Positions 31,015 through 53,425 of a stretch of DNA of 64,000 nucleotides are shown here, piece after piece. Both the position numbers and the translations under genes were made by a program. This stretch comes from Halolamina sp. CBA1230 (GTDB lineage: Archaea; Halobacteriota; Halobacteria; Halobacteriales; Haloferacaceae), in NCBI RefSeq assembly GCF_002025255.2, contig NZ_CP054587.1, positions 372,001-436,000 on the forward strand. Direction: 5' to 3'. Under the pieces are notes generated by a model. That model was not told the DNA's origin and searched no databases. It worked only from the letters and a program-made list of their open reading frames with translations. Each line of letters opens with the position of its first letter. The first letter of the stretch is position 1.

Positions 31015-31374
31015 TTACGACGCGTCGTCCGCAACGAATCGACGGACGTGGCGGTCGACCCGCCACGCGACAGCGGCGCTCAGCAGCGTGAGGACGACAC
31101 CGAACGAGGCGACCAGCGTCCAGCCGCTCAGCGCGAGCGCGACGCCGACACCCAGCAGCCCGAAATAGAGCGCCGACCGTCTATCGCCGCCGCGGAGCTC
31201 CGAGACGGCGACCGAGATCGTGAGGAGGCCCGCAGCGACGCCGATGACGGACTGCGTCGCGAGGGTCGTGCCGGCGAGGCGCAACTGCGGGGTCTCGGCG
31301 AGGAACGACGCGACGAGTAGCGTCCCCACCGCAACGACCGCGAGGTAGCCGTACCGGAGGTCGATGGAGGGCAT
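31015..31374 (-). CDS. Small four-helix membrane protein, function unknown
   Basis: 119 residues with hydrophobic segments at about 9-25, 37-57, 68-82 and 85-105, ending in a charged tail (WRVDRHVRRFVADDAS). No family recognised. It ends 40 bases from the convergent DUF5793-like gene, and its upstream side opens onto the gene-poor hairpin region. Confidence 0.65.
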   Translation of the reverse strand: MPSIDLRYGYLAVVAVGTLLVASFLAETPQLRLAGTTLATQSVIGVAAGLLTISVAVSELRGGDRRSALYFGLLGVGVALALSGWTLVASFGVVLTLLSAAVAWRVDRHVRRFVADDAS

Positions 31375-31541
31375 CGATCGACGGTTCGCGTTCGTGTCAC
31401 ATAGTGCTTTTCCGCTCCGTCGGTCGGTTCAAGAGCCTCGGCGGCGCCGACCCCCATCCGAACGAGGAGCACCGATGACTCGTGGACGACTGCGGCGCGG
31501 GGGCCCGGAACTGGCCCACGGCGCAGAGTGGCTACGAAGTT

Positions 31542-31579
31542 CGAACACTTCTCCATTTCTGAAAATTCTGAAGTGTTCG
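31542..31579. repeat. 10-bp inverted repeat with an AT-rich loop
   Basis: CGAACACTTC (31542-31551) and its exact complement GAAGTGTTCG (31570-31579) flank an 18-base AT-rich loop. It lies outside and 180 bases left of the hairpin array. It may be a binding site or RNA hairpin; no function is shown. Confidence 0.6.
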
Positions 31580-31759
31580 GACCGTGGCCTGCGTCGCGGT
31601 CGATCACGTACCCCGCCCCGGCAGGGTTGTTGCCGTCGTCGAGTTCGGCGACGACGCTCGTTCGGGAGCCAAAGGCCTGCGCTCGGTTGGGTCGTGACGG
31701 TGAGGCTGGTCGTGGAGTTCGGTGCTTCGACTGTGGGGAGGACCGCGGAGTGAGCATGA

Positions 31760-32273
31760 CCACTTGCGACCGCACCGCCCCGCACAGCCCACACTGCTCG
31801 CGGCTCACTCCGTTCGCCGTCGCCGGCGGCTCTGCCGCCGGCTGCCAGCGGGACCTTCGGTCCCGCCTCGCTCGCTTTGAGGCGGTTTGCCTCGCCTCCG
31901 TCGGGGCTTCGCCCCGACGTGCACCCACTCGCTCCGCTCGTGGGGACTCCGGCGAGTTTTCGCGCCTCGCTTCCTCCCCAGCCGACTCGTTCCTTCGCTG
32001 TCGTACGGGCGACCCGTGCGTCGCCCGTACGGCCTGTGGGACCTTCGGTCCCACTCTGACACGCGGCACGAGGCCGCGTGCGCTTCGCGCCGACAGCGAC
32101 CGCGGTGCGGTCGCGGTGGGCGCCTCGCGCTGGCGACCCGTCGCCATCACCAGAACGCTTTGCGTTCTGGTTGGCAGACGAGAGCCGGAGGCTCTCGTCG
32201 ACAGCGCGGGGGGAGGGGTGGGGAGTCGGCGCCCTGCCGGGCCTCGTGCCCGGCAGACTGCGGTCGCAAGTGG
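31760..32273. ncRNA. Candidate structured RNA or palindromic element: hairpin array closed by a 15-bp inverted repeat
   Basis: The ends CCACTTGCGACCGCA (31760-31774) and TGCGGTCGCAAGTGG (32259-32273) are exact complements. Inside lie perfect hairpins with 8-11 bp stems and mostly 3-base loops: 31822-31842, 31848-31866, 31899-31919, 32002-32031 (11 bp), 32036-32054, 32060-32080, 32096-32114, 32149-32171 (10 bp), 32177-32199 (10 bp), 32234-32256, plus shorter ones at 31879-31893, 32080-32090 and 32131-32146. Each stem has a different sequence. As RNA this would fold into a closed multi-branch structure on either strand. Whether it is transcribed is unknown; a mobile palindromic element is the alternative. 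Confidence 0.4.
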
Positions 32274-32415
32274 CCAAGCATCGAGATGCTGTCGCGGTCG
32301 CTGTCCCAGTAGTCAACGATCGAGACGCAGTGGCGGCAGCCAACCGAAACACGGTCGACTCGCAATGCAGGTACACGTCACCGCCTCGCTCCGTGAAAAC
32401 GGAACGCTAAACCGA

Positions 32416-32511
32416 CTAGTTCCCGCGACCCTGGAGTTTCTCTTCCTCGAGCAGCGTGGCGTTCTCCTGCTCCAGGACACCCTGCCCGCCTGTAATCACT
32501 GGTAGAGGCAT
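32416..32511 (-). CDS. 31-codon ORF ending in a copy of the PdxS C-terminal tail (microprotein or integration scar)
   Basis: ATG at 32511, TAG at 32416-32418. The peptide starts MPLPVITGGQGVLEQEN and ends [12 protein letters not shown]; the true PdxS ends [12 protein letters not shown]. The shared 39 bases (32416-32454 versus 32970-33008) differ at 5 positions, four of them synonymous. The similarity stops exactly at the stop codon. A TATA-like CATATCT lies ~25-30 bases upstream of the ATG. It is either a small expressed protein imitating the PdxS tail or the remnant of an integration at the pdxS 3' end. Confidence 0.4.
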   Translation of the reverse strand: MPLPVITGGQGVLEQENATLLEEEKLQGRGN

Positions 32512-32554: not shown

Positions 32555-32908
32555 ATGAAAAACGACATCCAAACGTCGCTACAGCTGCTGGTCGGAGCCG
32601 TCCTCGGTGTGGTCGGGGTAGCCGTGCTGTTCCGCGCGGGCGCCGGAGTGGGTTCGCTCTCGACCCTCGGCGTCGGGCTCGGGTTCCTCTACGGCCTCGT
32701 CACCGGTGTCGCCGACCACATCGAACCGCTGCGGCGTGCCTTTGAGCGGGGGCAGTGGCTGATCGTCGGGGTGGCGGTGCTGGTCCTCTTCGTGATCGTG
32801 CTGAACGACGCCGTCACGCCGGCGCTGTTGGGAAGCCTCGCACTCGGGCTGGGTGGCGGCGTTCTGCTCGGGACCGCCGGCGTGGTCGGCAGCACGCTGT
32901 CCCGGTAG
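32555..32908 (+). CDS. Small membrane protein between the two pdxS tail copies
   Basis: 117 residues with four hydrophobic helices (about 9-27, 33-50, 68-85, 88-112). The N terminus MKNDIQTSLQLL and the ~60 bases before it are clearly more AT-rich than the surroundings. No family recognised. It lies exactly between the duplicated pdxS 3' ends, so it may be cargo of a small integrated segment. Confidence 0.6.
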   Translation: MKNDIQTSLQLLVGAVLGVVGVAVLFRAGAGVGSLSTLGVGLGFLYGLVTGVADHIEPLRRAFERGQWLIVGVAVLVLFVIVLNDAVTPALLGSLALGLGGGVLLGTAGVVGSTLSR

Positions 32909-53113: not shown

Positions 53114-53316
53114 TGTCTGAGTTGGAACGGCACTGACCGCGAAAAGACCGACTCCACGTCGGTACACTTCCGCAATCCCGAGCTCGGCCGGTCCGAGCGA
53201 GTCAGATTTGCGGCCGTGCTGTTCCCAACGGGGAGTGGCCGTCGAGGGGCTTAATGGCTTTGTATCCGCGCCGACATCGGTGTGGACCTCCCCCACGCCG
53301 CCCGGCCATCGAAGCC

Positions 53317-53353: not shown

Positions 53354-53425
53354 GGGCTCGTAGATCAGTGGTAGATCATCCCCCTGGCACGGGGAAGGCC
53401 CGGGGTTCAAATCCCCGCGAGTCCA
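53354..53425 (+). tRNA. tRNA-Ala (anticodon GGC)
   Basis: Complete cloverleaf: acceptor GGGCUCG/CGAGUCC with the G3-U70 pair that marks alanine tRNAs, D stem GAUC/GAUC, anticodon stem UCCCC/GGGGA with loop CUGGCAC (anticodon GGC at 53386-53388, reads GCC), T stem CGGGG/CCCCG with loop UUCAAAU, discriminator A. No intron and no encoded CCA. The 3' side borders a decayed accessory patch. Confidence 0.97.

Follow-up and report, generated by a model that had tools for sequence, protein, structure and literature searches.

A hairpin array of Halolamina belongs to an interspersed repeat family of Halobacteria with a strand-specific fold

The hairpin array in the window, by which we mean the whole stretch of 64,000 nucleotides from Halolamina sp. 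CBA1230 analysed here, is one copy of an interspersed, non-coding repeat family of Halobacteria that folds strand-specifically. The copies keep a multi-branched fold via many compensatory changes; they are intergenic, some orthologous sites lack a copy and others carry it inverted, and occupants are swapped as if exchanged while the flanks stay in place. Apparently undescribed, the family reaches up to dozens of copies per genome in salt-loving archaea. We hypothesize, with a probability of about one half, that it is a non-autonomous, REP/SMR-like element which is selected as a folded single strand, probably of DNA, and exchanged between sites.

The window locus and its family

An earlier note on this DNA had described at least ten perfect hairpins of different sequence, mostly with 3-base loops, enclosed by a 15-bp inverted repeat, and each part of this description is borne out. 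Counting non-overlapping, perfect hairpins with a stem of 8 or more and a loop of 3-5, we found nine, of which seven have a 3-base loop; a tenth, at 32002-32031, has a 12-bp stem and a 6-base loop, and all ten are distinct. The segments 31760-31774 and 32259-32273 are complementary without mismatch and belong to outer arms (31754-31774 and 32259-32279) that are 90% complementary over 21 nt. Equal-sized tiles across the 64-kb window carried a mean of 0.21 such hairpins, with three or more found only in tiles overlapping the locus; among 500 dinucleotide-shuffled versions of the segment the mean was 0.086 and none had more than 2. The folding z-score of the locus was -10.1 on the plus strand and -11.4 on the minus strand. 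The repeat extends beyond the right end of the array as 39-bp repeats at 32269-32336, and its parts are as follows.

31754-32279, minus strand: whole element, minus being the folding strand
31754-31774, no strand: left arm of the outer inverted repeat (P1), conserved among copies, exact at 31760-31774
31794-31972, no strand: secondary insertion, a hairpin cluster (31822-31842, 31848-31866, 31899-31919)
31973-32001, minus strand: remaining 3' half of the tandem-GA helix and conserved CGGYTGGGGAGG box
32002-32054, minus strand: two inserted hairpins (32002-32031, 32036-32054), where compact copies carry GCGCGAGGGAYGA
32060-32080, minus strand: hairpin B, minus-strand loop CTCGT
32096-32114, minus strand: helix E hairpin, inner domain
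32145-32200, minus strand: extended tip of hairpin C, an inserted two-hairpin module (32149-32171 and 32177-32199)
32208-32225, minus strand: C-rich strand of helix P2, a G-run on the plus strand
32234-32256, minus strand: hairpin A, with a stem of 9 bp and minus-strand loop ACGAG; relatives carry compensatory changes
32259-32279, no strand: right arm of the outer inverted repeat (P1), conserved among copies, exact at 32259-32273
32269-32336, plus strand: flanking degenerate 39-bp repeat units (copies 32269-32297 and 32308-32336), typical for the family in the genus

Compared with compact copies, the window locus is a damaged and decorated member of the family, in which the core acquired about half of the ten hairpins by later insertion; the array first noticed is therefore made of family hairpins together with plug-in modules. 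The 5' half of its tandem-GA helix is lost at 32002-32054, and among 100 genus loci it has the lowest score with R1, a covariance model built from 19 compact copies (83.4 bits vs. 263 for the best copies). Part of the 31794-31972 insertion occurs alone at L029 in the same genome and also in other genera, and the two-hairpin module of 32145-32200 is found at other positions in other copies, again including other genera. This recurrent module, which has a conserved TGCCAA linker on the folding strand and occupies loops of the element (window 32145-32200; L276, L280, L031), looks like a parasitic three-way-junction plug-in. Within L037 (G004:C1:2698600-2701200), at 1283-1593, the 39-bp unit flanking one element stands in tandem about seven times, nearly identical each time. 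Small membrane-protein genes flank the window element at 31015-31374 and 32555-32908; the flanking blocks lie 79 bp apart in G003, so that both genes and the element are apparently absent there. Protein coding by the locus was set aside, for open frames do overlap it but the copies vary in length and carry large inserts. Alignments A1/A2 suggested a kissing loop of hairpin A (ACGAG) with hairpin B (CTCGT), which was rejected since the loops do not covary (for example at L050 and L046); that the two hairpins are one type in opposite orientation also speaks against it.

Homologues proved to be numerous. A blast search with 31500-32500 against 40 relatives matched 24 of the 40 genomes and returned at least 38 pieces from the window's own genome, where a narrower query returned at least 100. 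The relaxed core motif GCGAGGGAYGA-N(14-90)-RTCGGYTGGGGAGG has 72 exact sites in this genome; the exact core motif was detected, in numbers reaching 73 per genome, in 90 of 292 genomes of Halobacteria, and the reversed motif, used as a control, in neither the window's genome nor any of the 292. A second covariance model, R2, matched 192 of the 292 genomes at E 0.001 or better, some of them weakly. The hosts among the matches listed are Natrinema, Haladaptatus, Natronococcus, Halosimplex, Halococcus, Haloterrigena and Halolamina. No match was obtained with the exact motif against viral contigs or by blast of a compact copy against phages; the compact copy did give partial matches in five haloarchaeal plasmid records. 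About 108 genus copies were assembled, of which 19 compact ones (231-255 nt) align well. R1, run on 100 of the 108 genus loci (L026, L059, L062, L075, L262, L263, L269 and L270 being omitted), detects the element in all 100. The alignment for other genera (A4) holds 50 of 87 short cores, which were drawn from 122 motif hits.

A search of the whole window with Rfam 15 at the gathering score returned only an S15-Halobacteria ribosomal leader (53164-53228, minus strand) and a tRNA gene (53354-53425, plus strand), both away from the locus, and a search of 31650-32450 with E up to 10 gave five hits, all sub-threshold. No description of the family was found in the literature, largely its openly accessible part. 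The family seems to be a pervasive structured repeat of haloarchaeal genomes that is absent from this RNA family library, and since a single genome offers dozens of natural variants of the fold, the fold itself, the partner protein and the mode of exchange are accessible to direct test.

The conserved fold and its strand

Copies share a core of about 110-125 nt, made up of a GCGCGYGC/GCRYGCG helix above a variable hairpin, a tandem-GA helix and an invariant CGGYTGGGGAGG box. In the genus Halolamina this core is enclosed by the outer inverted repeat and extra hairpins, giving compact copies of about 245 nt; in other genera the inner core alone is present and runs as GGCGCGYGC, variable hairpin, GCRYGCGAGGGAYGA, tandem-GA hairpin and then TCGGYTGGGGAGG. 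The signature helix has 2-bp steps between tandem G-A mismatches, so that each strand reads GA-NN-GA-NN, and an alignment-free comparison of 70 distinct genus copies and 114 distinct ones of other genera found these steps paired and highly variable. RNAalifold predicted 61 consensus pairs from the 19 compact copies, 21 of them with two-sided compensation, and a compact copy folds with z = -6.7. The R1 alignment of 100 copies contains 5864 Watson-Crick, 198 G-U, 81 A-C and 125 other pairs, and one variable pair in it is GC in 53, CG in 23 and AT in 20 copies; because this alignment was fitted to R1, we relied on the alignment-free checks as well. The covariation among the 100 copies and across genera supports what had been proposed from the differing stems, namely that structure is selected and not one repeat copied, and homologues with compensated stem changes were indeed found at other loci by covariance model and genome scan.

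A G-U pair on one strand corresponds to A-C on the other. Summed over the 100-copy alignment, the inner helices carry 141 G-U vs. 25 A-C pairs on the minus strand, and the outer inverted repeat, hairpin A and P2 together carry 57 G-U vs. 56 A-C. Exact-pattern counts of G-U vs. A-C were 18:3 and 37:5. At the base of the core helix, the Y-R pairs are CG 67, TG 11, TA 11 and CA 0, and the G-Y' pairs GC 48 and GT 42, in total 53 G-U vs. 0 A-C. Keeping in mind this one-sided wobble, we interpret the inner core as being kept as a single-strand fold (the minus strand in the window), and the outer arms, with their balanced wobble, as behaving like plain double-stranded inverted repeats.

Some copies in other genera (L092 at 1501-1702, L121, L111, L144) are bounded by a different inverted end, of type GACTGAAAGGGGC, which suggests that the outer wrappings around one core are exchangeable. 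The TCGGYTGGGGAGGNNGTGG box, for instance at 31973-31985 on the minus strand of the window, is invariant and has at least four GG runs; judging from these runs it could form a two-layer G-quadruplex, a structure favoured by the potassium-rich cytoplasm of haloarchaea.

Placement, transcription and turnover of the copies

Predicted genes contain none of 59 copies in the genus (59 of 61 loci, with the window copy and L029 omitted) and 1 of 107 elsewhere. Gaps between divergent genes are depleted (9 of 98 copies vs. 99 of 330 background gaps) and those between convergent genes enriched (37 of 98 vs. 64 of 330), and both strand placements are common, with 19 (+,+) vs. 33 (-,-) in the genus and 35 vs. 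28 elsewhere. Spacing along the chromosome is random (CV 1.05 vs. 0.98 expected), by which evenly spaced chromosome markers were ruled out. The random spacing also lends no support to the suggestion, made in the earlier note, of a DNA element for topology or segregation; what stands in its favour is the apparent restriction to the chromosome, all own-genome copies among the matches listed lying on C1 (2.90 of 3.47 Mb). It would be rather surprising if the family were a host-serving chromosomal element, such as a supercoiling buffer or a nucleoid or insulator site, homogenised by gene conversion. Such an element might well be intergenic, enriched between convergent genes and confined to C1, and its orthologous sites could remain occupied while the occupants change, but the random spacing does not fit, nor do the few copies in the sister genomes G001, G002, G005 and G006 (0 to 12 exact motifs vs. 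72 in the window's genome) and the emptiness of the tested sites in several of them.

The 5' end of the fold has no promoter-like signal. TTWW is present at -45 to -18 in 45% of 53 genes at the same loci vs. 4% of 100 elements, and the TATA-like peak seen in genes is absent from the 100 elements. Pairing in the inner domain is 0.971 where only sense read-through is possible (n = 20), 0.976 where only antisense is (n = 33), and 0.976 in divergent placements with no read-through (n = 9). Thus, of the large multi-branch non-coding RNA suggested earlier, the strand-specific fold is confirmed, but a 5' promoter is lacking and the quality of the fold is independent of local transcription. A multi-copy structured RNA, produced from host transcripts or cryptic promoters, is accordingly a possible explanation to which we give less weight: the minus-strand RNA would fold and act in cis at 3' ends or in trans, perhaps bound by protein via the tandem-GA helix and the GGYTGGGGAGG box. 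Strand-specific covariation, frequent G-U pairs, unpaired boxes conserved class-wide and the stable fold of a compact copy (z = -6.7) all agree with such an RNA. Arguing against it are the lack of a promoter signal at the 5' end where genes have one, the frequency of both same-strand and opposite-strand placements, a fold equally kept where only antisense or no read-through is possible, and the lack of an Rfam 15 match at the gathering score. Moreover, RNA-based spread needs reverse transcriptase, present in 4 of 292 genomes, and retrotransposition was rejected on this ground. HEARO, ROOL and OLE, reportedly large structured bacterial non-coding RNAs, resemble the family in having a large multi-helix fold supported by covariation, but the family lacks a promoter, exchanges position and has no Rfam 15 match at the gathering score. 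If the RNA reading is true, the family is an abundant unrecognised archaeal RNA.

We favor single-stranded DNA, since the fold is kept whatever the local transcription and the elements lack the TATA-like peak of genes. Against DNA, G-U pairs are frequent (42 of 90 at one pair), a trait commoner in RNA, and being TATA-less at one distance is still compatible with transcription from further away.

As for partner enzymes, the only protein family to recur beside copies in other genera is an ATP-binding-cassette-like superfamily (14 of 120 loci), and no transposase family or autonomous gene linked to the copies was found among their neighbours. Among the matches listed, 12 of 37 genomes with at least 10 motif copies are without a match to PF01797 (Y1 transposase), close to the 91 of 292 genomes without one overall; read by eye, this indicates no association, and a requirement for Y1 transposase was rejected. 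R2 matched none of 10 Y1-transposase loci and gave one weak match (E 0.034) at three loci of the window's genome; likeness to IS200/IS605 ends was hence not found at these 13 loci.

Comparison of the sister genome G004 with the window's genome revealed the turnover of copies. A flank was common to 10 of 12 G004 loci in a first comparison and to 17 of 38 in a wider one, which was limited by the motif filter (14 loci at which the motif was not placeable were left out). Both flanks are collinear at 12 sites, 3 of which carry the element in inverted orientation. We then ranked copies by similarity for 22 G000-G004 pairs with flank matches, on shared columns only so as to avoid insert-length bias and leaving out L058/L106, L059/L039, L065/L256 and L048/L262. 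The orthologous occupant was the best match at 0 of 22 sites and within the top three at 0 of 22, and its median rank was 24.5 of 46 at the 12 sites with both flanks. Orthologous elements are therefore no more alike than random copies, which means that the sites are shared and the occupants shuffled. Some other genera argue against constant shuffling everywhere, as orthologous copies there remain similar and show higher conservation than the sequence on either side (L137/L189, L205/L223). Empty sites were read base by base for L044 (in G001, G002 and G005) and for L066 (in G001, G002 and G006); for the window element, the spacing of flank matches alone shows an empty site in G003, in G005 and probably in G006. 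Because the intergenic flanks are unalignable across empty sites, a target-site duplication is not readable. The idea of a mobile palindromic element is thus upheld in part by presence/absence and inversion at orthologous sites, though no transposase was found. The flanks of L039 (G004) match two different G000 loci, L023 and L059, as expected if recombination between copies had rearranged the chromosome, and such a rearrangement appears to have taken place.

Presence/absence between species, inverted ends, shortness and lack of coding would also suit an ordinary MITE of a known insertion sequence, with the 15-21 bp inverted repeat as its terminal repeat and a transposase in trans; we consider this improbable. 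Inverted repeat and outer hairpins were added at the level of the genus and are absent from the core in other genera, MITE copies would decay neutrally whereas here the stems are maintained by compensation, and the sites are shared but their occupants exchanged, with no target-site duplication seen between the unalignable flanks.

For the folded single-strand element that we prefer, the following mechanism is conceivable. The element would be non-autonomous and REP/SMR-like, and both selection and recognition would act on its folded single strand, in all likelihood DNA that becomes single-stranded during replication or DNA transfer. The outer inverted repeat may serve as the exchange boundary, so that a resident copy could give way to a new one in either orientation, through conversion or through an enzyme acting in trans, and inserted hairpin modules would ride along in tolerant loops. 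If this DNA reading is true, the family is a structural element that is strand-specific and independent of transcription, and its sites are kept while one occupant gives way to another. A bolder formulation, which we regard as doubtful when taken in full, is that of a class-wide haloarchaeal genetic element whose heritable, selected entity is the single-strand fold: fixed intergenic docks would have their occupants replaced or inverted as units bounded by inverted repeats, with no dedicated transposase, each lineage of occupants keeping one tandem-GA architecture by compensation while plug-in hairpin modules accumulate.

Relation to known elements

A REP is one short hairpin. The core described here differs from REP/BIME with RAYT in its 110-125 nt, its several helices and the lack of association with Y1 transposase. 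By analogy, the family would work most like REP/BIME together with the small mobile repeats of Haloquadratum. Defining features of PATEs, of REPs with RAYT and of MITEs are absent from it or not evident, the terminal inverted repeats of a MITE being present in this genus.

The SMR-A of Haloquadratum walsbyi are reportedly about 110 bp long, commonly >95% identical within a type, and target other mobile elements; SMR-A/B are short and non-coding, with inverted terminal repeats unrelated to known transposons and no target duplication (PMC3119063). That paper also describes SwitchRepeats, in which identical positions hold two distinct repeats or one repeat reversed, and reports deletion-coupled insertions together with SwitchRepeats in Haloquadratum as unexplained (PMC3119063). 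Going by this account, the family is like SMR in being short and non-coding with inverted ends, and like SwitchRepeats in that the occupant of a site is switched or inverted; it is set apart from SMR-A, by description, in that its copies diverge widely yet keep the fold, are intergenic and occur class-wide (PMC3119063). The DNA reading, if true, bears on these deletion-coupled insertions and SwitchRepeats as they are presented there (PMC3119063). PATEs are described in the same paper as palindrome-associated, IS605-related haloarchaeal elements, transposase-free and with many divergent copies, and our family is likewise haloarchaeal, transposase-free, palindromic and present in many divergent copies; unlike PATEs, which have IS605-like ends and no terminal inverted repeats, the window element has inverted ends (PMC3119063).

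Bacterial REP/BIME, as reported (PMC2817692), resemble the family in being extragenic, palindromic, multi-copy and in places arranged as inverted pairs, and the depletion between divergent genes seen here may be listed among these likenesses. At the motif places of G189 and G172, cores stand in inverted pairs 180-400 bp apart, an arrangement that is BIME-like.
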